Source of the DNA: Antedon mediterranea
Taxonomy: Eukaryota > Echinodermata > Crinoidea > Comatulida > Antedonidae
Direction of reading: 5' to 3'
Assembly (NCBI RefSeq): GCF_964355755.1
Contig: NC_092677.1
Location: 21,672,101-21,736,100, forward strand
DNA: 64,000 nucleotides
Each line of letters opens with the position of its first letter. Positions within the stretch are counted from its first letter, which is position 1. Under the pieces are notes generated by a model, which saw only the letters and a list, made by a program, of their open reading frames with translations, was not told where the DNA came from and made no database searches. This document shows positions 1 through 53,662 of this stretch, one piece after another. The position numbers and the translations under genes were made by a program.

Positions 1-499
1 ACATTTACAACCCTCAAAATATCTCACTTTCAAAAACAATATTTTTTCAATTAAAAAAAAAAAAAGAAATAAAATATCAGTAGAGGTTTGGACCCACTAG
101 TGAGAGCACTCAAACTTGAGCATTACCCGCTACGCCACAAACCAGCAGATGACTGAAGAGCTGATAATACTCTATTTATATGAAATAAATAATAAATCAA
201 TGAAAAATAATGCCATGCAACTTTGTTTCTGATTTTAAAAAAGGTTCATTTGTTTAGGCCTGACATTTACAACCCTCAAAATATCTCACTTTCAAAAACC
301 ATATTTATTTTCAATTTAAAAAAAAAAGAAAAAAAATATCCCTAGAGGTTCGACCCACTACTCAGAGCACTCAAACCTGAGCATTACCCGTTACGCCACA
401 AACCAGTAGATGACTGAAGAGCTGATAATAGTCTATTTATATGAAATGAATGATCAATCAATGAAAAATAATGCCATGCAACTTTGTTTCTGATTTAAA
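1..499. repeat. Satellite block, left edge (about two 261-bp monomers)
   Basis: The window opens inside an L-type monomer (ttttttcaatt, then a poly-A tract and atatcagtagagg). A full A-type monomer follows, with atccctagagg, the one-base-short ggttcgaccc and actcagagc. The block ends in gatttaaa, where island 1 begins. No gene is visible. The array clearly continues to the left of the window. Confidence 0.95.
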
Positions 500-500
500 C

Positions 501-544
501 AAGCACGAATGTGCAATACTCGGGGAACAGCGAAAGAAGCTGTA
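501..544. repeat. Direct repeat a, copy 1 (island 1 left end)
   Basis: This unit contains a small hairpin (gcac-gaat-gtgc), then atactcgggg, then cagcgaaagaagctgta. It recurs inside the same island at 1347-1389 and in island 2 at about 52977-53019. A modified copy lies at about 53818-53866, where ctcggggta is replaced by a short insertion. It marks the left end of both islands and also begins the second half of each. Confidence 0.85.
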
Positions 545-545
545 A

Positions 546-553
546 TGACGTCA
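546..553. promoter_or_regulatory. CRE-type palindrome TGACGTCA
   Basis: A perfect TGACGTCA palindrome is followed by a half-site (taacgtcac, about 567-575) and gacgtcat (about 627-634). The same three sites occur in island 2. In animals this is the binding site of CREB/ATF bZIP proteins. With no gene nearby on either strand, function is unproven and chance occurrence is possible. Confidence 0.35.
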
Positions 554-652
554 TAAGACCGGATGTAACGTCACATACACATCAAAAACCGCGCTACCAA
601 ATACGGCTATACGATACCATCTTCGAGACGTCATATGGCTGCATCCGGTATG

Positions 653-844
653 AAATTAAAAAATCCGGCTCTCTATAGCTTTGAGGACATGTCCCTGTAG
701 TATATTCATGCTAAATCCGAGCTCAATACTACAACGAATAAGGGAGGAGTAGTACTTTATAAATTGCACTTTTTGCTCAATAGTGTCCGGATGGAAGAAG
801 AAGAGGAAAAGATGAGAGAGTCCTAGACTCAGGTACCCCGACTA
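653..844. repeat. Direct repeat b, copy 1 (about 190 bp)
   Basis: The repeat runs from aaattaaaaaatccggctct through gtccctgtagtatattcatg, gaataagggaggagtagtac and ctcaatagtgtcc to ggtaccccga. A second copy at 2687-2868 forms the right end of the island, diverged by scattered substitutions and a shorter purine tract. Island 2 has the matching pair at 53128-53318 and 54341-54522. The geometry resembles direct terminal repeats around the tRNA cluster, although copy 1 lies about 150 bp inside the left end. Confidence 0.85.
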
Positions 845-906
845 ATAAAACGATATATACTCTATATCATTTTACGTATACAGTATATTTCACCATAAAG
901 TTAAAG

Positions 907-911
907 AAAAA
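907..911 (-). terminator. Pol III T5 terminator after tRNA-like 1
   Basis: Five T residues on the minus strand, two bases beyond the 3' end of the tRNA-like sequence, match a minimal Pol III terminator. The same TATTTTT arrangement follows the sequences at 1425, 53389 and 53903. Confidence 0.55.
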
Positions 912-913
912 TA

Positions 914-987
914 GGTTTCGCCAGGGCTCGAACCGGGACCTTCTGCGAGTTAAGCAGACTTGACAACCACTACACTACTACGAAAGT
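914..987 (-). tRNA. tRNA-Val(AAC)-like sequence 1, degenerate
   Basis: On the minus strand the A-box region TAGTGTAGTGG, an anticodon arm TCTGC-TTAACTC-GCAGA with anticodon AAC, and a T loop GTTCGAGC are all in tRNA order. Three defects are visible. A 3-nt insertion (TAG) lies between acceptor position 7 and position 8. The acceptor pairs in only five of seven positions (ACTTTCG/CGAAACC). Position 37 is T instead of A. One base of the variable loop is missing and the T stem has a C/T mismatch. A T5 run follows at 907-911. It is probably a pseudogene of a valine tRNA. Confidence 0.7.
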
Positions 988-1190
988 TCTTACACCAAAA
1001 ATGTGTGTTACACAAAGTTTTTTAATCCATTTAAATTACAAATAAATTATTATGTAATAAGCACAAAGCAAGATAAACATGTGTAAAAGTGATAATTACC
1101 GATTACACAAAATAAATATTTTTTAAAATAATAAAAATAAGATATACTGTAAATCATATTACCTTATCAGTACTTTTTACCATAAAGTTG

Positions 1191-1200
1191 AAAAAAAAAA
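1191..1200 (-). terminator. Pol III T10 terminator after tRNA-like 2
   Basis: Ten consecutive T residues on the minus strand begin directly after the 3' acceptor strand CGAAACC. This is a strong Pol III termination signal. An equivalent T9-T11 run follows each GGCTTCT-type sequence. Confidence 0.7.
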
Positions 1201-1272
1201 GGTTTCGCCCGGGCTCGAACCGGGGACCTTCTGCGTGTTAAGCAGACGTGATAACCACTACGCCAAGAAGCC
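1201..1272 (-). tRNA. tRNA-Val(AAC)-like sequence 2, best T arm
   Basis: This is a 72-nt cloverleaf on the minus strand. The anticodon arm is TCTGC-TTAACAC-GCAGA with T33, anticodon AAC and A37. The T arm is perfect (CCCGG-TTCGAGC-CCGGG) and the variable loop is AGGTC. The D-arm sequence GGCGTAGTGGTTATCAC resembles animal tRNA-Val. The acceptor GGCTTCT/CGAAACC has two mismatches (3:70 and 7:66), because the 5' strand differs from the GGTTTCG of its partner tRNA. The discriminator is T, where A is usual for valine, and no CCA is encoded. T10 follows at 1191-1200. It may be transcribed, but the acceptor suggests a pseudogene or chimera. Confidence 0.78.
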
Positions 1273-1274
1273 GC

Positions 1275-1346
1275 ATATAACTACATAACGCTGTGGTGTG
1301 TGTCACACATTGTGGCTTCTTAATTAAACAAATTAATTAACAAAAA
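1275..1346. repeat. Direct repeat c, copy 1 (upstream of tRNA-like 2)
   Basis: The unit is atataactacataacg, then gtggtgtgtgtcacacattg, ggcttctt and the near palindrome ttaattaaacaaattaatta. It recurs at 2617-2688, 53746-53817 and 54271-54340. It carries GGCTTCTT on the plus strand facing the same octamer at the 5' end of the minus-strand tRNA-like sequence (AAGAAGCC at 1266-1272), so the two can pair as an inverted repeat across about 1265-1320. Confidence 0.8.
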
Positions 1347-1389
1347 AGCACGAATGTGCAATACTCGGGGTACAGCGAAAGAAGCTGTA
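1347..1389. repeat. Direct repeat a, copy 2
   Basis: This nearly repeats 501-544 and begins the second tRNA-like pair of the island. It runs directly into a short palindromic stretch (ctgtatacag, then cgtatacag) at about 1385-1404. Confidence 0.85.
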
Positions 1390-1424
1390 TACAGACGTAT
1401 ACAGTTTGAAAGTAAAGAAAAATA

Positions 1425-1495
1425 GGTTTCGCCAGGGCTCGAACCGGGACCTTCTGCGTGTTAAGCAGACTTGACAACCACTACACTACGAAACC
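1425..1495 (-). tRNA. tRNA-Val(AAC)-like sequence 3, perfect acceptor stem
   Basis: This 71-nt minus-strand sequence has a fully paired acceptor stem (GGTTTCG/CGAAACC), TA at positions 8-9, and D-arm GTGT-AGTGG. The anticodon arm TCTGC-TTAACAC-GCAGA carries anticodon AAC, and the T loop is TTCGAGC. Defects are a G10/A25 mismatch (TTGTCAAG where animal tRNA-Val has TTATCACG), one missing base in the variable loop and a 51:63 mismatch in the T stem. A T5 run lies at 1418-1422. With 914 and 53389 it forms the GGTTTCG-type family. A reduced-function valine tRNA gene is as possible as a young pseudogene. Confidence 0.75.
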
Positions 1496-1699
1496 TCTTA
1501 CATTAAAAATGTGGGTTACAGAAAGTTTTTTAATCCATTTAAATTACAAATAAATGGTAATAAGCACAAAGCAAAATAAACATGTGTAAAAGTGATAATT
1601 ACCGATTACACAAAATAAGTATTTAAAAAAATAATAAAAATAAAATATACTCTGTATAATTATCATATTGCGTATACAGTACTTTTCACCATAAAGTTT

Positions 1700-1709
1700 A
1701 AAAAAAAAA
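1700..1709 (-). terminator. Pol III T10 terminator after tRNA-like 4
   Basis: A run of ten T on the minus strand immediately follows the acceptor 3' strand, as for tRNA-like 2. Confidence 0.65.
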
Positions 1710-1781
1710 GGTTTCGTCCGGGCTCGAACCAGGTACCTTCTGCTTGTTAAGCAAACGTGATAACCACTACGCCAAGAAGCC
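1710..1781 (-). tRNA. tRNA-Val(AAC)-like sequence 4, degenerate
   Basis: This GGCTTCT-type sequence is the partner of 1425. The anticodon stem is TTTGC/GCAGA around a TTAACAA loop, so anticodon AAC is kept and the stem still pairs through a wobble. The T stem CCTGG/CCCGG-A has its outer pair broken and a wobble at 51:63. The 3' acceptor strand is CGAAACC against GGCTTCT, with two mismatches. T10 follows at 1700-1709. In island 1 the insertion of about 825 bp begins only about 6 bp upstream of its 5' end, which removes the usual repeat c from that position. Confidence 0.68.
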
Positions 1782-1787
1782 GCATAT

Positions 1788-1957
1788 TATACAAATAATG
1801 AATGTTTATGAGTGTAATGGTACAAATAATGGCACTTGGTGAATGATGAAAGGTTATATCAACGAGGCAAAGCCGAGTTGATATAACCTTTCATCATTCA
1901 CCAAGTGCCATTATTTGTACCATTACACGAATACAAAACATTCATTATTTGTTTTAT
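1788..1957. repeat. Long near-perfect hairpin (arms about 75-80 nt)
   Basis: The inner arms match exactly over more than 30 bases: 1831-1863 pairs with 1877-1909, including ggttatatcaac against gttgatataacc. Pairing continues outward through gtaatggtacaaataatgg and its complement to caaataatgaatg/cattcattatttg, with a few indels. The apex is a GA/GA mismatch and a GGC-AAA-GCC mini-stem. Such a palindrome would extrude as a cruciform or fold as RNA, and fits a foldback transposon end. Confidence 0.9.
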
Positions 1958-1976
1958 ATAACATCTAAATAAATTC
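1951..1976. repeat. Inverted repeat, left member (26 bp)
   Basis: This stretch (gttttatataac, then atctaaataaattc) is the reverse complement of 2590-2615 with one mismatch. The pair bounds a 665-bp segment whose right end coincides with the right end of the insertion. The left member lies just inside the hairpin, so the terminal element may have been 1951-2615 with the hairpin as an extra left part. Confidence 0.85.
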
Positions 1977-2157
1977 TAGTTATTTGAATCAAATAAAAGG
2001 TAGCCCTAACCAAAGCTTACTACATTTCATTCACACACATTTGATTAAAAACAGTAACATTTGGTTTTTAATAATGTTATATTAAATGTTATATTTATAT
2101 GGATTTCGTAAACACACCTACTTTTGTGTTAATTATGTCAACAAACGACCAAACAAT

Positions 2158-2256
2158 CCTAGGCCTAGCAAGGCTAAAACGCCTAGGCTAGGCCTAGCCT
2201 AATACTAGCATGGCCTAAGGCTAGGCCTAGACCTAGTAGCCTAGTACTAGCTTGGC
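2158..2256. repeat. CTAGGCCTA-rich tract
   Basis: About 100 bp are dominated by permutations of cctaggcctag and related words (aggctaggcctag, cctagtactag). CTAG and GGCC palindromes recur, so the strand can self-pair in many registers. This is the only GC-containing simple-sequence tract in the window. It lies in the middle of the insertion. Confidence 0.8.
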
Positions 2257-2516
2257 TGAAAGGCAAAACATCGACAGACAATTGGAACTTATCTAAGCTA
2301 ATTATGGTTTTTCCAACAATTCCACGTCTTGTAGGGATGTCCCCATTAATTAATCAAAATCCTAAAAACGATCTAAAGCTAATTTAAATGCCTTTTTACA
2401 AAGGTGGCGCTGTTGTATTTCACAGTACATAGCCATATCATAGGATAATTTGTGTACTAGATTTTTTTTCATCCGCGAGACGATTTTTTTTCGTACACAA
2501 AAATGTTTCAAAAAGT

Positions 2517-2540
2517 ACTATTTAACGATCGTTGAATAGT
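2517..2540. repeat. 24-bp imperfect palindrome centred on cgatcg
   Basis: Actatt-t-aacgatcgtt-g-aatagt pairs with itself except for one symmetric position. It lies in the right part of the insertion. No binding protein is recognised. Confidence 0.6.
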
Positions 2541-2589
2541 GCGTACTATTGCACGCCATGTGACCCACAATCATCCAATCAAATGACAG

Positions 2590-2615
2590 GAATTTATTTA
2601 GGTGTTATATAAAAC
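2590..2615. repeat. Inverted repeat, right member (26 bp)
   Basis: This matches the reverse complement of 1951-1976 at 25 of 26 positions (aatttattta, ggtgttatataaaac). It ends at the junction with resumed island sequence, which supports it being a terminal inverted repeat. Confidence 0.85.
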
Positions 2616-2616
2616 C

Positions 2617-2688
2617 ATATAACTACATAACGCTGTGGTGTGTGTCACACATTGTGGCTTCTTAATTAAACAAATTAATTAACAAAAA
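2617..2688. repeat. Direct repeat c, copy 2
   Basis: This is nearly identical to 1275-1346, including the GGCTTCTT octamer and the ttaattaaacaaattaatta segment. It runs straight into the second copy of repeat b. Confidence 0.8.
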
Positions 2689-2868
2689 ATTAAAAATCCG
2701 GCTCTATAGATTTGAGAACATGTCCCTGTAGTATATTCATGCCAAATCCCAGCTCAATACTACAACGAATAAGGGAGGAGTAGTACTTTAAAAATCGCAC
2801 TTTTTACTCAATAGTGTCCAGATGGTGGAGGAGAAAATGAGTAAGTACTAGACTCGGGTACCCCGAGT
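2687..2868. repeat. Direct repeat b, copy 2 (right end of island 1)
   Basis: This is the diverged copy of 653-844. It ends in a 15-bp palindrome (ctcgggtaccccgag) at about 2853-2867, and the satellite A run follows immediately. Island 2 ends at the same palindrome. Confidence 0.85.
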
Positions 2869-3639
2869 AAAAAATATCCATTTGTTTAAGCCTGACATTC
2901 ACAACCCTAAAAAATATCTCATTTTCAAAAAAAATATTTATTTTCAATAAGAAAAAAAAAGCAATATCCCTAGAGGTTCGAACCCACTACTGCGAGAACT
3001 CAAACCTGAGCATTACCCGTTACGCCTCAAACCAGTAGATGACTGAAGAGCTGATAATACTCTATTTATATGAAATTAATAATAAATCAATGAAAAATAA
3101 TGCCATGCAACTTTGTTTCTGATTTTAAAAAAGGTTCACTTGTTTAGGCCTGACATTTACGACCCTCAAAATATCTCACTTTCAAAAACAATATTTATTT
3201 TAAATAAAAAAAAAAAGAAACAAAATATCCGTAGAGGTTCGAACCCACTAGTGAGGGCACTCAAACTTGAGCATTACCCGTTACGCCACAAACCAGTACC
3301 GTAGATGACTGAAGAGCTGATAATACTCTATTTATATGAAATAAATAATAAATCAATGAAAAATAATGCCATGCAACTTTGTTTCTGATTTTAAAAAAGG
3401 TCCACTTGTTTACGCATGATATTTACAACCCTCAAAATATCTCACTTTCAAAAACCATATTTATTTTCAATTTAAAAAAAAAAGAAAAAAAACATCCCTA
3501 GAGGTTCGACCCACTACTCAGAGCACTCAAACCTGAGCATTACCCGTTACGCCACAAACCAGTAGATGACTGAAGAGCTGATAATAGTCTATTTATATGA
3601 AATGAATGATCAATCAATGAAAAATAATGCCATGCAACT

Positions 3640-5206
3640 TTGTTTCTGATTTTAAAAAAGGTTCACTTGTTTTGGCCTGACATTTACAACCCTCAAAATA
3701 TCTCACTTTCAAAAACAATATTTTTTACATTAAAAAAAAAAAAGAAATACAATATCAGTAGAGGTTCGAACCCACTAGTGAGAGCACTCAATCTTGAGCA
3801 TTACCCGCTACGCCACAAACCAGTAGATGACTGAAGAGCTGATAATACTCTATTTATATGAAATAAATAATAAATAAATGAAAAATAATGCCATGCAACT
3901 TTGTTTCTGATTTTAAAAAAGGTTCATTTGTTTAGGCCTGTCATTTACAACCCTCAAAATATCTCACCTTCAAAAAAAATATTTATTTTCAATAAAAAAA
4001 AAAAGAAAAGAAATATCCCTAGAGGTTCGAACCCACTACTGCGAGCACTCAAACTTGAGCATTACCCGTTACGCCTCAAACCAGTAGATGACTGAAGAGC
4101 TGATAATACTCTATTTATATGAAATGAATAATAAATCAATGAAAAATAATGCCATGCAACTTTGTTTCTGATTTTAAAAAAGGTTCACTTGTTTAGGCCT
4201 GACATTTACAACCCTCAAAATATCTCACCTTCAAAAACAATATTTATTTTCAAATAAAAAAAAAAGAAAAAAAATATCCCTAGAAGTTCGAACCCACTAT
4301 TGAAATCACTCAAACCTGAGCATTACCCGTTCGCCGCAAACCATTTTATGACTGAAGAGCTGATAATAGTCTATTTATATGAAATGGATGATCAATCAAT
4401 GAAAAATAATGCCATGCAACTTTGTTTCTGATTTTAAAAAAGGTTCACTTGTTTAGGCCTGACAGTTGCAACCCTCAAAATATCTCACTTTCAAAAACAA
4501 TATTTATTTTCAATTAAAAAAAAAATAAAAAAAAAATACCCGTATAGGTTCGAACCCACTACTGAGAGCACTCAAACCTGAGCATTACACGTTACGCCAC
4601 AAACCAGTAGATAACTGAGGAGCTGATAATAGTCTATATATATGAAATGAATGATCAATCAATGAAAAATAATGCCATGCAACTTTGTTTCTAATTGAAA
4701 AAAATGTTCACTTGTTTAGGCCTGACATTTACAACCCTCAAAATATCTCACTTTCAAAAACAATATTTTTTCAATTAAAAAAAAAAAAGAAATAAAATAT
4801 CAGTAGAGGTTCGAACCCACTAGTGAGAGCACTCAAACTTGAGCATTACCCGTTACGCCACAAACCAGTAGATGACTGAAGAGCTGATAATACTCTATTT
4901 ATATGAAATAAATAATAAATCAATGAAAAATAATGCCATGCAACTTTGTTTCTGATTTTAAAAAAGGTCCACTTGTTTAGGCCGGATATTTACAACCCTC
5001 AAAATATCTCACTTTCAAAAACCATATTTATTTTCAATTTAAAAAAAAAAGAAAAAAAATATCCCTAGAGGTTCGACCCACTACTCAGAGCACTCAAACC
5101 TGAGCATTACCCGTTACGCCACAAACCAGTAGATGAGTGAAGAGCTGATAATAGTCTATTTATATGAAATGAATGATCAATCAATGAAAAATAATGCCAT
5201 GCAACT
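3640..5206. repeat. Subtype string L-D-E-F-G/L-A, copy 1
   Basis: The succession L, D, E, F, G/L hybrid, A is repeated in the same orientation at 56065-57628. The G/L hybrid (gattgaaaaaaatg-type left end joined to the atatcagtagagg right part) exists only in these two places, which makes common descent of the two strings likely. Each lies a short distance to the right of an island. Confidence 0.75.
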
Positions 5207-5354
5207 TTGTTTCTGATTTTAAAAAAGGTCCACTTGTTAAGGCCTGACATTTACAACCCTCAAAATAACTCACTTTCAAAAACCATATTTATTTTCAATT
5301 TAAAAAAAAAAGAAAAAAAATATCCCTAGAGGTTCGACCCACTACTCAGAGCAC

Positions 5355-5382
5355 TCAAAACTGAGCATTCAAAACTGAGCAT
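5355..5382. repeat. 14-bp tandem duplication inside one monomer
   Basis: The 14-mer tcaaaactgagcat is present twice in a row. It enlarges the region corresponding to the anticodon arm of the tRNA-like element in this single copy. This is a local slippage event. Confidence 0.9.
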
Positions 5383-6515
5383 TACCCGTTACGCCACAAA
5401 CCAGTAGATGACTGAAGAGCTGATAATAGTCTATTTATATGAAATGAATGATCAATCAATGAAAAATAATGCCATACAACTTTGTTTCTGATTTTAAAAA
5501 AGACCCATTTGTTTAGGCCTGACATTCACAACCCTAAAAAATATCTCATTTTCAAAAAAAATATTTATTTTCAATAAGAAAAAAAAAGCAATATCCCTAG
5601 AGGTTGGAACCCGCTACTGAGAGCACTCAAACCTGGGTATTACCCGTTACGCCACAAACCAGTAGATAACTGAAGAGCTGATAATAGTCTATTTATATGA
5701 AATCAATGATCAATCAATGAAAAATAATGCCATGCAACTTTGTTTCTGATTTTACAAAAGGTTCACTTGTTTAGGCCTGACAGTTGCAACCCTCAAAATA
5801 TCTCACTTTCAAAAACAATATTTATTTTCAATTAAAAAAAAAATATCCTTACAGGTTGGAACCCGCTACTGAGAGCACTCAAACCTGGGTATTACCCGTT
5901 ACGCCACAAACCAGTAGATAACTGAAGAGCTGATAATAGTCTATTTATATGAAATTAATGATCAATCAATGAAAAATAATGCCATGCAACTTTGTTTCTG
6001 ATTTTAAAAAAGGTTCACTTGTTTAGGCCTGACATTTACAACCCTCAAAATATCTCACTTTCAAAAACAATATTATTTTCAATTAAAAAAAAGAAAGAAA
6101 CAAAATATCAGTAGAGGTTCGAACCCACTAGTGAGAGCACTCAAACTTGAGCATTACCCGTTACGCCACAAACCATTAGATGACTGAAGAGCTGATAATA
6201 CTCTATTTATATGAAATAAATAATAAATCAATGAAAAATAATGCCATGCAACTTTGTTTCTGATTTTAAAAAAAGTCCACTTGTTTAGGCCTGACATTTA
6301 CAACCCTCAAAATATCTCACTTTCAAAAACCATATTTATTTTCAATTTAAAAAAAAAAAGAAAAAAAATATCCCTAGAGGTTCGACCCACTACTCAGAGC
6401 ACTCAAACCTGAGCATTACCCGTTACGCCACAAACCAGTAGATGACTGAAGAGCTGATAATAGTCTATTTATATGAAATGAATTATCAATCAATGAAAAA
6501 TAATGCCATGCAACT

Positions 6516-7206
6516 TTGTTTCTGATTTTAAAAAAGGTCCACTTGTTTAGGCCTGACATTTACAACCCTCAAAATATCTCACTTTCAAAAACCATATTTA
6601 TTTTCAATTGAAAAAAAAAAGAAAAAAAATATCCCTAGAGGTTCGACCCACTACTCAGAGCACTTAAAACTGAGCATTACTCGTTACGCCACAAACCAGT
6701 AGATGACTGAAGAGCTGATGTTTGTTTCTGATTTTAAAAAAGGTCCACTTGTTTAGGCCTGACATTTACAACCCTCAAAATATCTCACTTTGAAAAAAAA
6801 TATTTATTTTCAATTAAAAAAAAAAAGAAGAAATATCCCTAGAGGTTCGAACCCACTACTGCGAGCACTCAAACTTGAGCAATACTCGTTATGCCTCAAA
6901 CCAGTAGATGACTGAAGAGCTGATAATACTCTATTTATATTGAATGAATAATAAATCAATGAAATTTAAAAAAAAAGGTTCACTTGTTTACAACCCTCAA
7001 AATATCTCACTTTCAAAAACAATATTTATTTTCAAATAAAAAAAAATTTAAAAAAAAATACCCGTATAGGTTCGAACCCACTACTGAGAGCACTCAAACC
7101 TGAGCACTACCCGTTACGCCACAAACCAGAAGATGACTGAGGAGCTGATAATAGTCTATATATATGAAATGAATCATCAATCAATGAAAAATAATGCCAT
7201 GCAACT
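6516..7206. repeat. Truncated satellite monomers
   Basis: The monomer at 6516 is only 206 bp. Sequence jumps from agagctgat at about 6719 to tttgtttctg, losing some 55 bp that include the TATTTATA box. In the next junction near 6964 the conserved aataatgccatgcaac core and ggcctgacattta are missing. These are the clearest deletions in the array. Confidence 0.85.
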
Positions 7207-9622
7207 TTGTTTCTGATTGAAAAAAATGTTCACTTGTTTAGGCCTGATATTTACAACCCTCAAAATATCACACTTTCAAAAACAATATTTATTTTCAAAT
7301 AAAAAAAAAATATCCTTACAGGTTGGAACCCGCTACTGAGAGCACTCAAACCTGCGTATTACCCGTTACGCCACAAACCAGTAGATAACTGAAGAGCTGA
7401 TAATAGTCTATTTATATGAAATTAATGATCAATCAATGAAAAATAATGCCATGCAACTTTGTTTCTGATTTAAAAAAAGATCCATTTGTTTAGGCCTGAC
7501 ATTCACAACCCTCAAAATATCTCACTTTCAAAAACAATATTATTTTCAATAAAAAAAAAACAAAATACAAAATATCCGTAGAGGTTCGAACCCACTAGTG
7601 AGAGCACTCAAACTTGAGCATTACCCGTTACGCAACAAACCAGTAGATGACTGAAGAGCTGATAATACTCTATTTATATGAAATTAATGATCAATCAATG
7701 AAAAATAATGCCATGCAACTTTGTTTCTGATTTTAAAAAAGGTTCATTTGTTTAGGCCTGACATTTACAACCCTCAAAATATCTCACTTTCAATAAAAAT
7801 ATTTATTTTCAATTAAAAAAAAAAGAAATAACCCTAGAGGTTCGAACCCACTACTGCGAGCACTCAAACTTGAGCATTACTCGTTACGCCTCAAACCAGT
7901 AGATGACTGAAGAGCTGATAATACTCTATTTATATGAAATGAATAATAAATCAATGAAAAATAATGCCATGCAACTTTGTTTCTGATTTTAAAAAAGATC
8001 CATTTGTTTAGGCCTGACATTCACAACCCTAAAAAATATCTCATTTTCCCAAAAAATATTTATTTTCAATAAGAAAAAAAAAAGCAATATCCCTAGAGGT
8101 TGGAACCCGCTACTGAGAGCACTCAAACCTGGGTATTACCCGTTACGCCACAAACCAGTAGATACCTGAAGAGCTGATAATAGTCTATTTATATGAAATT
8201 AATGATCAATCAATGAAAAATAATGCCATGCAACTTTGTTTCTGATTTTAAAAAAGGTTCACTTGTTTAGGCCTGACATTTACAACCCTCAAAATATCTC
8301 ACTTTCAAAAACAATATTTATTTTCAATAAAAAAAAAAAAAAAAAAAAATATTCGTAGAGGTTCGAACCACTACTGCGAGAACTCAAACCTGAGCATTAC
8401 CCGTTACGCCACAAACCAGTAGATGACTGAAGAGCTGATAATAGTCTATTTATATGAAATGAATAATAAATCAGTGAAAAATAATGCCATGCAACTTTGT
8501 TTCTGATTTAAAAAAAGGTTCACTTGTTTAGGCCTTACATTTACAACCCTAAAAATATCTCACTTTCAAAAACAATATTTATTTTCAATTTAAAAAAAAA
8601 AATCCCTAGAGGTTCGAACCCACTACTGAGAGAACTCAAACCTGAGCATTATCCGTTACGCCACCAACCAGTAGGTGACTGAGGAGCTGATAATAGTCTA
8701 TTTATATGAAATAAATGATCAATCAATGAAAAATAATGCCATGCAACTTTGTTTCTGATTTTAAAAAAGGTTCACTTGTTTTGGCCTGACATTTACAACC
8801 CTCAAAATATCTCACTTTCAAAAACAATATTTTTTCAATTAAAAAAAAAAAGAAATAAAATATCAGTAGAGGTTTGAACCCACTAGTGAGAGCACTCAAA
8901 CTTGAGCATTACCCGCTACGCCACAAACCAGTAGATGACTGAAGAGCTGATAATACTCTATTTATATGAAATAAATAATAAATCAATGAAAAATAATGCC
9001 ATGCAACGTTGTTTCTGATTTTAAAAAAGGTTCATTTGTTTAGGCCTGTCATTTACAACCCTCAAAATATCTCACCTTAAAAAAAAATATTTATTTTCAA
9101 TAAAAAAAAAAAGAAAAGAAATATCCCTAGAGGTTCGAACCCACTACTGCGAGAACTCAAACTTGAGCATTACCCGTTACGCCTCAAACCAGTAGATGAC
9201 TGAAGAGCTGATAATACTCTATTTATATGAAATGAATAATAAATCAATGAAAAATAATGCCATGCAACTTTGTTTCTGATTTTAAAAAAGGTTCACTTGT
9301 TTAGGCCTGACATTTACAACCCTCAAAATATCTCACCTTCAAAAACAATATTTATTTTCAAATAAAAAAAAAAGAAAAAAAATATCCCTAGAAGTTCGAA
9401 CCCACTATTGAAATCACTCAAACCTGAGCATTAACCGTTCGCCGCAAACCATTTTATGACTGAAGAACTGATAATAGTCTATTTATATGAAATGGATGAT
9501 CAATCAATGAAAAATAATGCCATGCAACTTTGTTTCTGATCTTAAAAAAGGTTCACTTGTTTAGGCCTGACATTTACAACCCTCAAAATATCTCAATTTC
9601 AAAAACAATATTTATTTTAAAT

Positions 9623-9633
9623 AAAAAAAAAAA
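9623..9633 (-). terminator. T11 run: candidate Pol III terminator of the monomer
   Basis: On the minus strand 11 T residues begin nine bases after the tRNA-like 3' end, and a T4 lies in between (atattttg). Every monomer has such a run, from about 6 to 25 T, always at this place. It fits a Pol III stop signal, although a neutral A tract cannot be excluded. Confidence 0.5.
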
Positions 9634-9651
9634 GAAACAAAATATCCGTAG

Positions 9652-9662
9652 AGGTTCGAACC
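9652..9662 (-). promoter_or_regulatory. B box (TFIIIC site) of the satellite monomer
   Basis: GGTTCGAACCT on the minus strand matches the Pol III B box GGTTCGANNCC at all but the last base. It lies inside the 12-bp palindrome gggttcgaaccc, so the plus strand also reads as a B box. Many B-type monomers have aggatcgaacc here, which gives GGTTCGATCCT. A and J types lack one T and K types change G57. Confidence 0.6.
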
Positions 9663-9693
9663 CACTAGTGAGAGCACTCAAACTTGAGCATTA

Positions 9694-9705
9694 CCCGTTA
9701 CGCCA
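9694..9705 (-). promoter_or_regulatory. A box of the satellite monomer
   Basis: TGGCGTAACGGG fits the A-box consensus TRGYNNANNNG. It begins 43 bp upstream of the B box, within the range of ordinary tRNA genes. Subtype E has lost a base here (gttcgcc in place of gttacgcc). C and D types change the first T to A (gcctcaaacc on the plus strand). Confidence 0.6.
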
Positions 9706-9740
9706 CAAACCAGTAGATGACTGAAGAGCTGACAATACTC

Positions 9741-9748
9741 TATTTATA
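9741..9748 (-). promoter_or_regulatory. TATA box upstream of the tRNA-like element
   Basis: TATAAATA on the minus strand spans positions -36 to -29 from the inferred first tRNA nucleotide (9712). That is where upstream TATA elements of Pol III genes sit. The motif is kept in nearly all monomers, and F types have TATATATA instead. It is missing from the shortened monomer at 6516. Confidence 0.55.
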
Positions 9749-10575
9749 TGAAATGAATGATCAATCAATGAAAAATAATGCCATGCAACTTTGTTTCTGA
9801 TTTTAAAAAAGGTCCACTTGTTTAGGCCTGTCATTTACAACCCTCAAAATATCTCACCTTCAAAAAAAATATTTATTTTCAATAAAAAAAAAAAAGAAAA
9901 GAAATATCCCTAGAGGTTCGAACCCACTACTGCGAGCACTCAAACTTGAGCATTACCCGTTACGCCTCAAACCAGTAGATGACTGAAGAGCTGATAATAC
10001 TCTATTTATATGAAATGAATAATAAATCAATGAAAAATAATGCCATGCAACTTTGTTTCTGATTTAAAAAAAGGTTCACTTGTTTAGGCCTGACATTTAC
10101 AACCCTCAAAATATCTCACTTTCAAAAACAATATTTATTTTAAATAAAAAAAAAAAAGAAACAAAATATCCGTAGAGGATCGAACCCACTAGTGAGATCA
10201 CTCAAACTTGAGCATTACCCGTTACGCCACAAACCAGTAGATGACTGAAGAGCTGATAATACTCTATTTATATGAAATAAATAATAAATCAATGAAAAAT
10301 AATGCCATGCAACTTTGTTTCTGATTTTAAAAAAGGTCCACTTGTTTAGGCCTGACATTTACAACCCTCAAAATATCTCACTTTCAAAAACAATATTTAT
10401 TTTCAATAAAAAAAAAAAAAAAAAAAATATTCGTAGAGGTTCGAACCCACTACTGCGAGAACTCAAACCTGAGCATTACCCGTTACGCCTCAAACCAGTA
10501 GATGACTGAAGAGCTGATAATACTCTATTTATATGAAATTAATAATAAATCAATGAAAAATAATGCAATGCAACT

Positions 10576-12132
10576 TTGTTTCTGATTTTAAAAAAGGTTC
10601 ATTTGTTTAGGCCTGTCATTTACAACCCTCAAAATATCTCACCTTCAAAAAAAATATTTATTTTCAATAAAAAAAAAAGAAAAGAAATATCCCTAGAGGT
10701 TCGAACCCACTACTGCGAGCACTCAAACTTGAGCATTACCCGTTACGCCTCAAACCAGTAGATGACTGAAGAGCTGATAATACTCTATTTATATGAAATG
10801 AATAATAAATCAATGAAAAATAATGCCATGCAACTTTGTTTCTGATTTTAAAAAAGGTTCACTTGTTTAGGCCTGACATTTACAACCCTCAAAATATCTC
10901 ACCTTCAAAAACAATATTTATTTTCAAATAAAAAAAAAAAGAAAAAAAATATCCCTAGAAGTTCGAACCCACTATTGAAATCACTCAAACCTGAGCATTA
11001 ACCGTTCGCCGCAAACCATTTTATGACTGAAGAGCTGCTAATAGTCTATTAATATGAAATGGATGATCAATCAATGAAAAATAATGCCATGCAACTTTGT
11101 TTCTGATTTTAAAAAAGGTTCACTTGTTTAGGCCTGACAGTTGCAACCCTCAAAATATCTCACTTTCAAAAACAATATTTATTTTCAATTAAAAAAAAAA
11201 GAAAAAAAAAATACCCGTATAGGTTCGAACCCACTACTGTGAGCACTCAAACCTGAGCATTACACGTTACGCCACAAACCAGTAGATGACTGAGGAGCTG
11301 ATAATAGTCTATATATATGAGATGAATGATCAATCAATGAAAAATAATGCCATGTAACTTTGTTTCTGATTGAAAAAAATGTTCACTTGTTTAGGCCTGA
11401 CATTTACAACCCTCAAAATATCTCACTTTCAAAAACAATATTTATTTTCAAATAAAAAAAAAAAAAAAAAATATCCCTAGAAGTTCGAACCCACTATTGA
11501 AATCACTCAAAACTGAGCATTACCCGTTACGCCGCAAACCAGTATATAACTGAAGAGCTGATAATAGTCTATTTATATGAAATGGATGATCAACCAATGA
11601 AAAATAATGCCATGCAACTTTGTTTCTGATTTTAAAAAAGGTCCACTTGTTTAGGCCTGACATTTACAACCCTCAAAATATCTCACTTTCAAAAACAATA
11701 TTTATTTTCAATTTAAAAAAAAAAAATCCCTAGAGGTTCGAACCCACTACTGAAAGCACTCAAACCTGAGCATTATCCGTTACGCCACAAACCAGTAGAT
11801 GACTGCGGAGCTGATAACAGTCTATTTATATGAAATGAATGATCCATCAATGTAAAATGATGTTATGCAAATTTGTTTCTGATTTTTAAAAAAGGTTCAC
11901 TTGGTTAGGCTTGACATTTAAAACCCTCAAAATATCTCACTTTCAAAAACCATATTTATTTTCAATTTAAAAAAAAGAAAAAAAATATCCCTTGAGGTTC
12001 GACCCACTCCTCACAGCACTCAAACCTGAGCATTACCCGCTACGCCACAAACCAGTAGATGACTGAAGAGCTGATAATAGTCTATTTATATGAAATGAAT
12101 TATCAATCAATGAAAAATAATGCCATGCAACT
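10576..12132. repeat. Cassette D-E-F-G-H/I-J
   Basis: Starts are D 10576, E 10836, F 11097, G 11360, a 253-bp H/I hybrid 11620 and J 11873. The hybrid begins as H (ctactgaaagcac) and ends as I (gataacagtc, gatccatcaatg). Compared with the full cassette at 30319, one monomer has therefore been lost by H-I fusion. Confidence 0.8.
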
Positions 12133-14473
12133 TTGTTTCTGATTTTAAAAAAGGTCCACTTGTTTAGGCCTGACATTTACAACCCTCAAAATATCTCCCT
12201 TTCAAAAACCATATTTATTTTCAATTTAAAAAAAAAAGAAAAAAAATATCCCTAGAGGTTCGACCCACTACTCAGAGCACTCAAAATTGAGCATTACCCG
12301 TTACGCCACAAACCAGTAGATGACTGAAGAGCTGATAATAGTCTATTTATATGAAATGAATGATCAATCAATGAAAAATAATGCCATGCAACTTTGTTTC
12401 TGATTTAAAAAAAGGTTCACTTGTTTAGGCCTGACATTTACAACCCTAAAAATATCTCACTTTCAAAAACAATATTTATTTTCAATTTAAAAAAAAAAAT
12501 CCCTAGAGGTTCGAACCCACTACTGAGAGAACTCAAACCTGAGCATTATCCGTTACGCCACCAACCAGTAGGTGACTGAGGAGCTGATAATAGTCTATTT
12601 ATATGAAATAAATGATCAATCAATGAAAAATAATGCCATGCAACTTTGTTTCTGATTTTAAAAAAGGTTCACTTGTTTTGGCCTGACATTTACAACCCTC
12701 AAAATATCTCACTTTCAAAAACAATATTTTTTCAATTAAAAAAAAAAGAAATAAAATATCAGTAGAGGTTTGAACCCACTAGTGAGAGCACTCAAACTTG
12801 AGCATTACCCGCTACGCCACAAACCAGTAGATGACTGAAGAGCTGATAATACTCTATTTATATGAAATAAATAATAAATCAATGAAAAATAATGCCATGC
12901 AACTTTGTTTCTGATTTTAAAAAAGGTTCATTTGTTTAGGCCTGTCATTTACAACCCTCAAAATATCTCACCTTAAAAAAAATATTTATTTTCAATAAAA
13001 AAAAAAGAAAAGAAATATCCCTAGAGGTTCGAACCCATTACTGCGAGCACTCACACTTGAGCATTACCCGTTACGCCTCAAACCAGTAGATGACTGAAGA
13101 GCTGATAATACTCTATTTATATGAAATGAATAATAAATCAATGAAAAATAATGCCATGCAACTTTGTTTCTGATTTTAAAAAAGGTTCACTTGTTTAGGC
13201 CTGACATTTACAACCCTCAAAATATCTCACCTTCAAAAACAATATTTATTTTCAAATAAAAAAAAAAGAAAAAAAATATCCCTAGAAGTTCGAACCCACT
13301 ATTGAAATCACTCAAACCTGAGCATTAACCGTTCGCCGCAAACCATTTTATGACTGAAGAGCTGATAATAGTCTATTTATATGAAATGGATGATCAATCA
13401 ATGAAAAATAATGCCATGCAACTTTGTTTCTGATTTTAAAAAAGGTTCACTTGTTTAGGCCTGACATTTACAACCCTCAAAATATCTCAATTTCAAAAAC
13501 AATATTTATTTTAAATAAAAAAAAAAAAGAAACAAAATATCCGTAGAGGTTCGAACCCACTAGTGAGAGCACTCAAACTTGAGCATTACCCGTTACGCCA
13601 CAAACCAGTAGATGACTGAAGAGCTGACAATACTCTATTTATATGAAATGAATGATCAATCAATGAAAAATAATGCCATGCAACTTTGTTTCTGATTTTA
13701 AAAAAGGTCCACTTGTTTAGGCCTGACATTTACAACCCTCAAAATATCTCACTTTCAAAAACAATATTTATTTTCAATAAAAAAAAAAAAAAAAAAAAAA
13801 ATATTCGTAGAGGTTCGAACCCACTACTGCGAGAACTCAAACCTGAGCATTACCCGTTACGCCTCAAACCAGTAGATGACTGAAGAGCTGACAATACTCT
13901 ATTTATATGAAATGAATGATCAATCAATGAAAAATAATGCCATGCAACTTTGTTTCTGATTTTAAAAAAGGTCCACTTGTTTAGGCCTGACATTTACAAC
14001 CCTCAAAATATCTCACCTTCAAAAAAAATATTTATTTTCAATAAAAAAAAAAAAGAAAAGAAATATCCCTAGAGGTTCGAACCCACTACTGCGAGCACTC
14101 AAACTTGAGCATTACCCGTTACGCCTCAAACCAGTAGATGACTGAAGAGCTGATAATACTCTATTTATATGAAATGAATAATAAATCAATGAAAAATAAT
14201 GCCATGCAACTTTGTTTCTGATTTTAAAAAAGGTTCACTTGTTTAGGCCTGACATTTACAACCCTCAAAATATCTCACCTTCAAAAAAAATATTTATTTT
14301 CAATAAAAAAAAAAAAGAAAAGAAATATCCCTAGAGGTTCGAACCCACTACTGCGAGCACTCAAACTTGAGCATTACCCGTTACGCCTCAAACCAGTAGA
14401 TGACTGAAGAGCTGATAATACTCTATTTATATGAAATGAATAATAAATCAATGAAAAATAATGCCATGCAACT

Positions 14474-15249
14474 TTGTTTCTGATTTTAAAAAAGGTTCAC
14501 TTGTTTAGGCCTGACATTTACAACCCTCAAAATATCTCACCTTCAAAAACAATATTTATTTTCAAATAAAAAAAAAAGAAAAAAAATATCCCTAGAAGTT
14601 CGAACCCACTATTGAAATCACTCAAAACTGAGCATTACCCGTTACGCCGCAAACCAGTATATAACTGAAGAGCTGATAATAGTCTATTTATATGAAATGG
14701 ATGATCAACCAATGAAAAATAATGCCATGCAACTTTGTTTCTGATTTTAAAAAAGGTCCACTTGTTTAGGCCTGACATTTACAACCCTCAAAATATCTCA
14801 CTTTCAAAAACAATATTTATTTTCAATTTAAAAAAAAAAAAATCCCTAGAGGTTCGGACCCACTACTGAAAGCACTCAAACCTGAGCATTATCCGTTACG
14901 CCACAAACCAGTAGATGACTGCGGAGCTGATAATAGTCCATTTATATGAAATGAATGATCAATCAATGAAAAATAATGCCATGCAACTTTGTTTCTGATT
15001 TTAAAAAAGGTCCACTTGTTTAGGCCTGACATTTACAACCCTCAAAATATCTCGCTTTCAAAAACAATATTTATTTTCAATTAAAAAAAAAAGAAAAAAA
15101 ATATTAGTAGAGGTTCGAACCAACTACTGCGAGAACTCAAACCTGAGCACTACCGGTTACGCCACAAACCAGTAGATGACTGAAGAGCTGATAATACTCT
15201 ATTTATATGAAATTAATAATAAATCAATGAAAAATAATGACATGCAACT
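14474..15249. repeat. Shortened cassette E/G-H-I
   Basis: The first monomer starts as E (caccttcaaaaac, caaataaaa) and ends as G (tcaaaactgag, cagtatataac), so F has been deleted by exchange between E and G. H (14735) and I (14989) follow in the normal order. Confidence 0.78.
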
Positions 15250-16030
15250 TTGTTTCTGATTTTAAAAAAGGTTCACTTGTTTAGGCCTGACATTTACAAC
15301 CCTCAAAATATCTCACTTTCAAAAACAATATTTATTTTAAATAAAAAAAAAAAAGAAACAAAATATCCCTAGAGGTTCGACCCACTACTCAGAGCACTCA
15401 AACCTGAGCATTACCCGTTACGCCACAAACCAGTAGATGACTGAAGAGCTGATAATAGTCTATTTATATGAAATGAATGATCAATCAATGAAAAATAATG
15501 CCATGCAACTTTGTTTCTGATTTTAAAAAATATCCATTTGTTTAGGCCTGACATTCACAACCCTAAAAAATATCTCATTTTCAAAAAAAATATTTATTTT
15601 CAATAAGAAAAAAAAAAGCAATATCCCTAGAGGTTCGAACCCACTACTGCGAGAACTCAAACCTGAGCATTACCCGTTACGCCTCAAACCAGTAGATGAC
15701 TGAAGAGCTGATAATACTCTATTTATATGAAATTAATAATAAATCAATGAAAAATAATGCCATGCAACTTTGTTTCTGATTTTAAAAAAGGTTCACTTGT
15801 TTAGGCCTGACATTTACAACCCTCAAAATATCTCACTTTCAAAAACAATATTTATATTAAATAAAAAAAAAAAGAAACAAAATATCCGTAGAGGATCGAA
15901 CCCACTAGTGAGAGCACTCAAACTTGAGCATTACCCGTTACGCCTCAAACCAGTAGATGACTGAAGAGCTGCTAATACTCTATTTATATGAAATAAATAA
16001 TAAATCAATGAAAAATAATGCCATGCAACT

Positions 16031-19000
16031 TTGTTTCTGATTTTAAAAAAGGTCCACTTGTTTAGGCCTGACATTTACAACCCTCAAAATATCTCACTTT
16101 CAAAAACCATATTTATTTTCAATTTAAAAAAAAAAGAAAAAAATATCCCTAGAGGTTCGACCCACTACTCAGAGCACTCAAAATTGAGCATTACCCGTTA
16201 CGCCACAAACCAGTAGATGACTGAAGAGCTGATAATAGTCTATTTATATGAAATGAATGATCAATCAATGAAAAATAATGCCATGCAACTTTGTTTCTGA
16301 TTTAAAAAAAGGTCCACTTGTTTAGGGCTGACATTTACAACCCTCAAACTATCTCACTTTCAAAAACCATATTTATTTTAAATTTAAAAAAAAAAGAAAA
16401 AAAATATTCGTAGAGGTTCGAACCCACCACTGCGAGAACTCAAACCTGAGCACTACCAGTTACGCTACAAACCAGTAGATGACTGAAGAGCTGATAATAG
16501 TCTATTTATATGAAATTAATAATAAATCAATGAAAAATAATGCCATGCAACTTTCTTTCTGATTTTAAAAAAGGTTCACTTGTTTAGGCCTGACATTTAC
16601 AACCCTCAAAATATCTCACTTTCAAAAACAATATTTATTTAAAAAAAAAAAAAAAAAACAAAATCTTCGTAGAGGTTCGAACCCACTAGTGAGAGAACTC
16701 AAACTTGAGCATTACCCGTTACGCCACAAACCAGTAGATGACTGAAGAGCTGATAATACTCTATTTATATGAAATAAATAATAAATCAATGAAAAATAAT
16801 GCCATGCAACTTTGTTTCTGATTTTAAAAAAGGTCCACTTGTTTAGGCCTGACATTTACAACCCTCAAAATATCTCACTTTAAAAAACCATATTTATTTT
16901 CAAATTAAAAAAAAAAGAAAAAAATATCCCTAGAGGTTCGACCCACTACTCAGAGCACTCAAAACTGAGCATTACCCGTTACGCCACAAACCAGTAGATG
17001 ACTGAAGAGCTGATAATAGTCTATTTATATGAAATGAATGATCAATCAATGAAAAATAATGCCATGCAACTTTGTTTCTGATTTAAAAAAAGGTTCACTT
17101 GTATAGGCCTGACATTTACAACCCTAAAAATATCTCACTTTCAAAAACAATATTTATTTTCAATTTTAAAAAAAAAATCCCTAGAGGTTCGAACCCACTA
17201 CTGAGAGAACTCAAACCTGAGAATTATCCGTTACGCCACCAACCAGTAGGTGACTGAGGAGCTGATAATAGTCTATTTATATGAAATGAATGATCAATCA
17301 ATGAAAAATAATGCCATGAAGCTTTGTTTCTGATTTTAAAAAAGGTTCACTTGTTTTGGCCTGACATTTACAACCCTCAAAATATCTCACTTTCAAAAAC
17401 AATATTTTTTCAATTAAAAAAAAAAAAGAAATAAAATATCAGTAGAGGTTCGAACCCACTAGTGAGAGCACTCAAACTTGAGCATTACCCGTTACGCCAC
17501 AAACCAGTAGATGACTGAATAGCTGATAATAGTCTATTTATATGAAATGAATGATCAATCAATGAAAAATAATGCCATGCAACTTTGTTTCTGATTTTAA
17601 AAAAGGTTCACTTGTTTAGGCCTGATATTTACAACCCTCAAAATATCTCACTTTCAAAAACCATATTTATTTTCAATTTTAAAAAAAAAGAAAAAAAATA
17701 TCCCTAGAGGTTCAACCCACTACTCAGAGCACTCAAACCTGAGCATTACCCGTTACGCCACAAACCAGTAGATGAATGAAGAGCTGATAATAGTCTATTT
17801 ATATGAAATGAATGATCAATCAATGAAAATAATGCCATGCAACTTTGTTTCTGATTTTAAAAAAGGTCCACTTGTTTAGGCCTGACATTTACAACCCTCA
17901 AAATATCTCACTTTCAAAAACAATATTTATTTTAAATAAAAAAAAAAAAAGAAACAAAATATCCGTAGAGGATCGAACCCACTAGTGAGAGCACTCATAC
18001 TTGAGCATTACCCGTTACGCCTCAAACCAGTAGATGACTGAAGAGCTGCTAATACTCTATTTATATGAAATAAATAATAAATCAATGAAAAATAATGCCA
18101 TGCAACTTTGTTTCTGATTTTAAAAAAGGTCCACTTGTTTAGGCCTGACATTTACAACCCTCAAAATATCTCACTTTCAAAAACAATATTTATTTTCAAT
18201 AAAAAAAAAAAAAAAAAATATTCGTAGAGGTTCGAACCCACTACTGCGAGAACTCAAACCTGAGCATTACCCGTTACGCCTCAAACCAGTAGATGACTGA
18301 AGAGCTGATAATACTCTATTTATATGAAATTAATAATAAATCAATGAAAAATAATGCCATGCAACTTTGTTTCTGATTTTAAAAAAGGTCCACTTGTTTA
18401 GGCCTGACATTTACAACCCTCAAAATATCTCGCTTTCAAAAACAATATTTATTTTCAATTAAAAAAAAAAGAAAAAAAATATTAGTAGAGGTTCGAACCC
18501 ACTACTGCGAGAACTCAAACCTGAGCACTACCGGTTACGCCACAAACCAGTAGATGACTGAAGAGCTGATAACAGTCTATTTATATGAAATGAATGATCC
18601 ATCAATGTAAAATGATGTTATGCAACTTTGTTTCTGATTTTTAAAAAAGGTCCACTTGTTTAGGCCTGACATTTACAACCCTCAAAATATCTCACTTTCA
18701 AAAACAATATTTATTTTCAATTTAAAAAAAAAAGAAAAAAAGTATCCCTAGAGGTTCGACCCACTACTCAGAGCACTCAAACCTGAGCATTACTTGTTAC
18801 GCCACAAACCAGTAGATAACTGAAGAGCTGATAATAGTCTATTTATATGGAATTAATGATAAATCAATGAAAAATAATGCCATGCAACTTTGTTTCTGAT
18901 TTTAAAAAAGGTCCACTTGTTTAGGCCTGACATTTACAACCCTCAAAATATCTCACTTTCAAAAACAATATTTTTTTCAATAAAAAAAAAAAAAAAAAAA

Positions 19001-22000: not shown

Positions 22001-23310
22001 TGCCATGCAACTTTGTTTCTGATTTTAAAAAAGGTCCACTTGTTTAGGCCTGACATTTACAACCCTCAAAATATCTCACTTTCAAAAACCATATTTATTT
22101 TCAATTTAAAAAAAAAAGAAAAAAAATATCCCTAGAGGTTCGACCCACTACTCAGAGCACTCAAAACTGAGCATTACCCGTTACGCCACAAACCAGTAGA
22201 TGACTGAAGAGCTGATAATAGTCTATTTATATGAAATAAATGATCAATCAATGAAAAATAATGCCATGCAACTTTGTTTCTGATTTAAAAAAAGGTTCAC
22301 TTGTTTAGGCCTGACATTTACAACCCTAAAAATATCTCACTTTCAAAAACAATATTTATTTTCAATTTAAAAAAAAAAAATCTAGAGGTTCGAACCCACT
22401 ACTGAGAGAACTCAAACCTGAGCATTATCCGTTACGCCACCAACCAGTAGGTGACTGAGGAGCTGATAATAGTCTATTTATATGAAATGAATGATCAATC
22501 AATGAAAAATAATGCCATGCAACTTTGTTTCTGATTTTAAAAAAGGTTCACTTGTTTTGGCCTGACATTTACAACCCTCAAAATATCTCACTTTCAAAAA
22601 CAATATTTTTTCAATTAAAAAAAAAAAAGAAATAAAATATCAGTAGAGGTTCGAACCCACTAGTGAGAGCACTCAAACTTGAGCATTACCCATTACGCCA
22701 CAAAAAAATAGATGACTGAAGAGCTGACAATACTCTATTTATATGAAATAAATAATAAATCAATGAAAAATAATGCCATGCAACTTTGTTTCTGATTTTT
22801 AAAAAGGTCCACTTGTTTAGGCCTGACATTTACAACCCTCAAACTATCTCACTTTCAAAAACCATATTTATTTTAAATTTAAAAAAAAAAAGAAAAAAAA
22901 TATTCGTAGAGGTTCGAACCCACCACTGCGAGAACTCAAACCTGAGCACTACCAGTTACGCTACAAACCAGTAGATGACTGAAGAGCTGATAATAGTCTA
23001 TTTATATGAAATTAATAATAAATCAATGAAAAATAATGCCATGCAACTTTCTTTCTGATTTTAAAAAAGGTTCACTTGTTTAGGCCTGACATTTACAACC
23101 CTCAAAATATCTTACTTTCAAAAACAATATTTATTTAAAAAAAAAAAAAAAAAGAAACAAAATCTCCGTAGAGGTTCGAACCCACCAGTGAGAGAACTCA
23201 AACTTGAGCATTACCCGTTACGCCACAAACCAGTAGATGACTGAAAAGCTGATAATACTCTATTTATATGAAATAAATAATAAATCAATGAAAAATAATG
23301 CCATGCAACT
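16031..23310. repeat. Satellite block: about 28 monomers, left copy of a 7.28-kb spaced duplication
   Basis: Order is A (16031), I' with aaactatctc (16292), B' with ctttctttctg (about 16553), A (16812), H' with gtataggcc (17073), L, A with gatgaatgaag, B, C, I, A, C with ttcgtggagg (18890), a B/A hybrid, K' (19414), C, B, the C/H-L pair twice (20191-21233), A, A, K, A, H', L, I' (22786), B' (23048). The string 16031 to about 17925 matches 23311 to about 25205 marker for marker. No gene is present. Confidence 0.92.
20191..21233. repeat. Tandem duplicated dimer C/H-L
   Basis: The unit is a hybrid monomer (C left half with tattcg, H' right half with attatccg and ccaccaacc) plus an L monomer. 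Copies start at 20191 and 20712, a period of 521 bp. The copies differ by few bases, for example tattcggagagg in the first and tattcgtagagg in the second. Confidence 0.82.
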
Positions 23311-52974: not shown

Positions 52975-53127
52975 CAAGCACGAATGTGCAATACTCGGGG
53001 TACAGCGAAAGAAGCTGTAATGACGTCATAAGACCGGATGTAACGTCACATACACATCAAAAACCGCGCTACCAAATACGGCTATACGATACCATCTTCG
53101 AGACGTCATATGGCTGCATCCGGTATG

Positions 53128-53318
53128 AAATTAAAAAATCCGGCTCTCTATAGCTTTGAGGACATGTCCCTGTAGTATATTCATGCTAAATCCGAGCTCA
53201 ATACTACAACGAATAAGGGAGGAGTAGTACTTTATAAATTGCACTTTTTGCTCAATAGTGTCCGGATGGAAGAAGAAGAGGAAAAGATGAGAGAGTCCTA
53301 GACTCAGGTACCCCGACT
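53128..53318. repeat. Direct repeat b, island 2 copy 1
   Basis: This matches 653-844 of island 1 almost base for base, including ggagtagtactttataaatt and ggtaccccgact. Its partner is 54341-54522. Confidence 0.85.
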
Positions 53319-53388
53319 AATAAAACGATATATACTCTATATCATTTTACGCATACAGTATATTTCACCATAAAGTTAAAGAAAAATA

Positions 53389-53459: not shown

Positions 53460-53662
53460 TCTTACACCAAAAATGTGGGTTACACAAAGTTTTTTAATCC
53501 ATTTAAATTACAAATAAATTATTATGTAATAAGCACAAAGCAAGATAAACATGTGTAAAAGTGATAATTACCGATTACACAAAATAAATATTTTTAAAAA
53601 TAATAAAAATAAGATATACTGTATATCATATTACCTTATCAGTACTTTTTACCATAAAGTTG

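Follow-up and report, generated by a model that had tools for sequence, protein, structure and literature searches.

The 64-kb window, by which we mean the whole stretch of DNA that was analysed, consists of nearly nothing but a tandem repeat of about 262 bp in a single orientation, and this satellite carries a genuine type-2 Pol III layout, well beyond what chance would provide (the T-run contributes little to it). Judged by its sequence, the monomer would be classed among type-2 Pol III promoter units on account of its box A and box B. The reading that we regard as probable is that a satellite unit captured a degenerate tRNA-like Pol III gene and was then amplified by recombination, with the signals of the gene as passengers.

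The satellite array and its Pol III-type signals

The features of the window to which the text refers are as follows (all on the minus strand).
1..503, minus strand: satellite array, left piece
504..2867, minus strand: interruption 1 (limits approximate), with tRNA-Val-type copies at 916-984, 1200-1272, 1423-1496 and 1709-1781
2868..52978, minus strand: main piece of the satellite array, in which monomers of about 262 bp from eight intermixed subfamilies stand head to tail
9563..9823, minus strand: one monomer of subfamily B, which holds the four signals of the original prediction
9623..9633, minus strand: T-run, potential Pol III terminator, within a length-variable poly(T) tract
9652..9662, minus strand: box B GGTTCGAACCT, a perfect GGTTCRAnYCY, with GGTTCGAACC at 9662-9653
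9694..9705, minus strand: box A TGGCGTAACGGG, its first 11 nt a perfect TRGYnnARBGG
9741..9748, minus strand: TATA element TATAAATA, at -36 to -29 relative to tRNA-like position 1
52979..54522, minus strand: interruption 2 (limits approximate), with tRNA-Val-type copies at 53387-53460, 53671-53743, 53901-53974 and 54187-54261
54523..64000, minus strand: satellite array, right piece, reaching the end of the window

A total of 231 anchor matches delimited 230 intervals, which bears out the roughly 230 monomers that had been predicted. The aligned set comprises the 226 monomers that measure 240-280 bp; of the four excluded, two carry insertions and two are short (206 and 222 bp). Conservation within the monomer is highest in columns 21-60 and 231-240 of the minus-strand consensus (10-column means of 0.977-0.996), outside the tRNA-like part. 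Protein coding was rejected (no complete ORF of at least 90 aa), and the core of the CENP-B box, searched at up to one mismatch, had no match in the 64 kb (3.1 expected by chance). One exact 25-nt monomer pattern had no matches in viral or prokaryotic contig collections and one head pattern had none in a viral contig collection; because these collections hold viruses and prokaryotes, the zero counts carry little weight. Literature searches returned no paper title on this particular satellite, and such a paper may still exist.

The two interruptions are near-identical (95% between 1-1787 and 52479-54266, array flank included) and sit in the same monomer phase, 52 kb apart. Each contains four tRNA-Val-type copies, of two types in alternation, and 131-nt direct repeats (92%) near its ends; seven of the eight copies were called by ARAGORN (anticodon AAC) and five pass the Rfam gathering score. 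What they contain is a small tandem cluster of tRNA-Val that was copied together with the satellite. Interruption 1 has an extra stretch at about 1784-2615, absent from interruption 2, which includes a 62-nt near-perfect inverted repeat (1807-1868/1872-1933) and a further inverted pair (1951-1987/2579-2615); it looks like a foldback or MITE-type element, and its sub-threshold Rfam miRNA matches probably reflect the hairpin.

TATA element, box A, box B and T-run were confirmed on the minus strand where the original prediction had placed them, at tRNA-gene spacing. In the minus-strand consensus, TATAAATA occupies columns 76-83, TGGCGTAACGGG columns 119-130 and GGTTCGAACC columns 162-171, with the T tract starting at about column 182; the first ten bases of box B form a palindrome. 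From the start of box A to the start of box B the distance is 43 nt, and a per-monomer scan, with box strings other than those of PMC7279448, found this spacing in 173 of the 226 monomers and a spacing of 42 in 41 of them. According to PMC7279448, type-2 promoters have box A at +12 and box B at +54 to +64. With box A at +12, box B of the satellite starts at about +55, and TATAAATA comes to lie at about -32 to -25 if the start site is set by this published box A position. The same source gives -30/-24 as the TATA position in tRNA genes of plants and fission yeast and describes a TATA box as rare in animal tRNA genes. The TATA element of the satellite lies near the position that it has in TATA-bearing type-2 genes.

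For the comparison with shuffled sequences, the type-2 promoter strings of human tRNA genes quoted in PMC7279448 served as box consensus. The monomer consensus has no mismatch to either published box, at a spacing of 43; among 3000 dinucleotide shuffles (both strands, spacing 30-60), the best joint score was two mismatches, reached in 13, and none came within one. With other consensus strings, the monomer consensus had three mismatches and none of 1500 shuffles was equally good. When the boxes were held fixed and the other bases shuffled 20,000 times, 0.13% of the shuffles placed TATAAATA at -40 to -21, 3.9% placed TATAWA there, and 43% had a T4 run no more than 30 nt after box B. Since no shuffle came within one mismatch of both boxes and TATAAATA so seldom falls in place, the layout is real; the T-run alone is weak evidence, because so many shuffles provide one.

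The layout had been predicted in most of the roughly 230 monomers, and this holds loosely: 205 of the 226 keep a set with at most one mismatch per box, TATAWA and T4 (the loose counts are column-wise, a one-base deletion counting as one mismatch). It was overstated for the exact strings, which together with a T4 run are found in 25/226, and for the perfect set (perfect published boxes, TATAAATA and T4), found in 55/226, 53 of these in the subfamilies B and E described below. Both published boxes are perfect in 60/226 monomers and are present at up to one mismatch, column-wise, in 213/226; box A at up to one mismatch occurs in 216/226 column-wise and in 206/226 without column alignment. The monomer first described is a member of subfamily B, which among the large subfamilies is the best preserved. 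That every monomer would keep the complete set, which a maintained Pol III unit or a TFIIIC domain would require, is unsupported.

Ancestry of the tRNA-like part

Placed on a cloverleaf, the consensus forms 15 of 21 pairs, G-U included (shuffle mean 10.2, P 0.022), distributed as 5/7 in the acceptor, 4/4 in the D, 3/5 in the anticodon and 3/5 in the T stem; 4 of 261 other placements in the monomer match or exceed 15 pairs. The predicted folds of the heads differ among subfamily consensuses. An intact tRNA gene in the monomer was rejected, as none was recognised by Rfam or ARAGORN: the Rfam tRNA model (RF00005) left every monomer of the window unmatched even at E up to 10, and likewise at E up to 5 in 9500-10600, and the seven tRNA-Val copies called by ARAGORN all lie within the interruptions, none in satellite monomers. 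Over 9500-10600, the other Rfam families (ribozymes included) yielded only a meaningless match to CrcZ (E 4.2), and a search of the entire window at E up to 10 matched nothing but tRNA and miRNA families, in every case within the interruptions. Nor was there support for descent from the tRNA-Val copies nearby, the heads of the eight subfamilies aligning with four of the eight copies no better than shuffled sequences (P 0.14-0.50). With no Rfam match and with the tRNA-Val alignment at shuffle level, the case for tRNA descent rests on the boxes, their spacing and the modest pairing. Our best guess is that a degenerate tRNA-like gene would be the likeliest origin.

The main rival for the origin (it does not compete over function) is a SINE, the head of which would be the tRNA-like part and copies or fragments of which would have turned tandem. 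SINE heads are typically degenerate tRNA-like sequences with good boxes, a description that the tRNA-like part of the monomer would fit. SINE-derived satellites do exist in squamates (as described in PMC10702118). However, a correctly placed TATA element and a T-run about 10 nt past box B suit a gene-like unit, whereas a SINE would be expected to run on into its body. We think a SINE source improbable.

Box conservation, subfamilies and function

The comparison of box and flank columns that the original prediction had named as its own test revealed no excess of conservation for the TATA element, box A or box B; this is the first of the two results that together were to refute the prediction. 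Mean column identity was 0.989 in TATA, with 0.935 and 0.974 in boxes A and B, versus 0.963 in the flank, and one-sided tests for boxes more conserved than flank gave p=0.97 (box A), 0.64 (box B) and 0.32 (TATA), box A being if anything less conserved than the flank (p 0.034). With only the informative columns of the published boxes, A and B were again no better conserved than the flank. As a control, 147 flank windows were scored with the same mask and leniency as the boxes. With the box A mask, the median flank window keeps a perfect consensus in 192/226 monomers versus 105/226 for box A, and with the box B mask in 185/226 versus 153/226 for box B; 93% of the flank windows equal or beat box A in perfect retention and 70% equal or beat box B. 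At up to one mismatch, the figures are 216/226 for box A (flank median 224) and 223/226 for box B (flank median 221). Columns that vary among subfamily consensuses number 5/12 in box A, 3/10 in box B, 1/8 in TATA, 16/48 in the other columns of the tRNA-like part and 31/160 in the flank. Since the signals are no better preserved than their surroundings in the unit, they appear to be inherited leftovers rather than guarded working parts.

Pooled counts of within-subfamily substitutions for TATA and box B lean the other way, against a passive reading. They are lower than in the flank (778/35840) for TATA (16/1792, p=6.7e-5) and box B (33/2240, p=0.024) but not for box A (73/2688, p=0.066, in the higher direction), in tests that treat monomers as independent, which copies are not. 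Within subfamily B only, TATA is low (1/432, p=3.5e-4), and box A (21/648) and box B (21/540) are not. When columns are taken as the units, the same data give no lower rate (p 0.55 for TATA, 0.58 for box B and 0.99 for box A). Among the signals, it is for TATA that constraint is hardest to exclude, and homogenised arrays offer little power to detect selection. Transitions at CpG are not in excess (15/1832 versus 227/16333 at other C/G positions) and thus give no sign of methylation-driven decay.

Average-linkage clustering at a chosen cut-off of 0.065 resolved eight subfamilies (A 67, B 54, C 41, D 18, E 17, F 10, G 9, H 8) and two single monomers, a number that depends on the cut-off (0.05 splits further, 0.07 merges). 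Likeness within subfamilies is 96-98%. Both boxes are intact in the consensus of B (54) and E (17) only; each of the other six has a family-wide departure from the consensus in one or both boxes, and most of these changes are single bases. In A (67), the first base of box A is changed from T to A (AGGCG for TGGCG); F (10) has a C and H (8) a T within the GG of box A, and in H TATAAATA is absent from all eight monomers, which have TATATATA instead. Box B has a one-base deletion in C (41) and reads TTCC for TTCG in G (9), and D (18) combines a deletion in box A with an altered end of box B. Subfamilies with a fixed box change are as abundant as the intact ones, which indicates that box changes did not hinder amplification. 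The 41 monomers with the deletion in box B are alike at the 96.0% level and occur all along the array, between 3412 and 62872.

The order of the array is a mosaic with recurring subfamily words (e.g., ABAADHDE, which occurs five times); 85 positions lie in repeated 6-words, versus a mean of 2.05 and a maximum of 12 in 300 label shuffles. Such a mosaic of repeated words is as recombination makes it. Simple lag periodicity is weak (mean identity 0.921-0.933 at lags 1-30) because the subfamilies are interleaved. Adjacent monomers are no more alike than distant ones (mean identity 0.922 at lag 1 versus 0.925 over all pairs).

In the capture scenario that we favour, the unit would comprise a tRNA-like Pol III gene, complete with TATA, both boxes and terminator, together with its flanks, and the predicted RNA is about 75-90 nt long. 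Once captured, it would have multiplied by unequal exchange and block duplication, and the signals would have been carried passively, changing at about the same rate as the sequence around them. On this view the ancestor would be a gene for a tRNA or something tRNA-like, and promoter strength would have had no share in the spread. The box changes may weaken the promoter; at most subfamilies B and E (71/226 monomers, 53 of the 71 with the perfect set) would be promoter-competent, chromatin permitting, and most of the array is predicted to be silent or weakly active.

A mixed Pol III domain, with competent B and E units interleaved with box-changed units of A, C, D, F, G and H, strikes us as an unlikely description of the array; if it held, the order of the subfamilies would set transcription or TFIIIC binding along the satellite, and every competent unit would yield its own short, TATA-driven, terminated RNA. 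We also doubt that this is a working Pol III array, in which many monomers would give rise to a short tRNA-like RNA that has a role in the cell, the signals being maintained by selection. The complete signals in correct geometry, the loose set in 205/226 monomers, the low pooled substitution counts of TATA and box B and the CpG transitions that are not elevated would all suit it, but by column the boxes are conserved no more than the flanks, six of the eight subfamilies have a fixed box change, and the heads are predicted to fold differently between subfamily consensuses.

Slightly less probable still is a TFIIIC-binding domain, in which the boxes would bind TFIIIC without productive Pol III and would shape chromatin or insulate. 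In favour of this, more than 200 sites lie within one block, with at most one mismatch in box B in 223/226 monomers and in both boxes in 213/226. Yet box B is perfect in just 153/226, 70% of the flank windows keep their consensus equally well or better, and the box B cores of subfamilies C and G are altered. A chance resemblance in an AT-rich repeat, followed by tandem amplification, is scarcely credible: a single coincidence copied about 230 times would appear regular and T-runs come easily in this composition (43% of shuffles), but none of the 3000 shuffles came jointly within one mismatch, TATAAATA fell into place in 0.13%, and the cloverleaf pairing has a P of 0.022.

Comparison with known tandem Pol III families

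A satellite with TATA and terminator as well as tRNA boxes had been expected to be unusual, but tandem families with tRNA-like Pol III sequences, as described in PMC10702118, provide precedents. PolIII/TAN (formerly Hirt) of the newt Cynops pyrrhogaster is a tandem tRNA-like family capable of in vitro transcription; compared by description only, it resembles the satellite in that a tRNA-like sequence is part of a tandem unit measuring a few hundred bp, and differs in the length of that unit (about 360 nt versus about 262 bp). Rana/polIII of water frogs (a tandem unit of about 250 nt with partial similarity to tRNA and, outside that part, no known SINE similarity) is the closest in size, again by description, and the description in that source omits TATA and terminator. 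OAX/satellite I of Xenopus laevis consists of tandem repeats with a tRNA-derived central segment, and Ackerman 1983, cited in PMC10702118, refers in its title to a family transcribed in oocytes; unlike the monomer of about 262 bp, its repeat unit is called too long for a proper satellite there. Hy/polIII of Hydromantes is about 200 nt long and lacks box B, and its tRNA origin is questioned (PMC10702118). The squamate satellites likewise include tRNA-related promoter box sequence but have identified SINEs as their source; a 67-nt snake unit comprises the 3' part of a SINE head, including box B, and part of the body (both as given in PMC10702118).

Among tandem Pol III genes, those of rodent 4.5SH RNA are alike in forming hundreds of tandem copies, every one of which holds a type-2 Pol III gene whose TATA-like box lies at -31/-24, and differ in their units of 4-5 kb, their abundant RNA and their origin from an ancient B1 variant (according to PMC7279448). 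Tandem Pol III gene units are also reported for the tRNA gene arrays of Entamoeba (PMC2652664) and for the SYY cluster of Arabidopsis, which is silenced in most tissues (PMC12308677); these arrays hold tRNA genes, whereas in the satellite monomers none was recognised by Rfam or ARAGORN. With its 262-bp unit, 226 monomers and boxes, the satellite can be placed on sequence grounds with the tRNA-like/Pol III satellites, by kind and not by homology. It adds to a known kind a new example that has a canonical TATA sequence, and does not form a category of its own.

If a degenerate tRNA-like gene was indeed captured, the array would be a large and well-resolved case of a Pol III gene-like unit turned satellite DNA. 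It is also a warning that promoter motifs which a satellite repeats by the hundreds represent one event, not hundreds. Natural variants in which box A, box B or neither is changed sit side by side, and the array makes the question of whether promoter signals aid the spread of a satellite directly testable; the answer from the sequence leans towards no.
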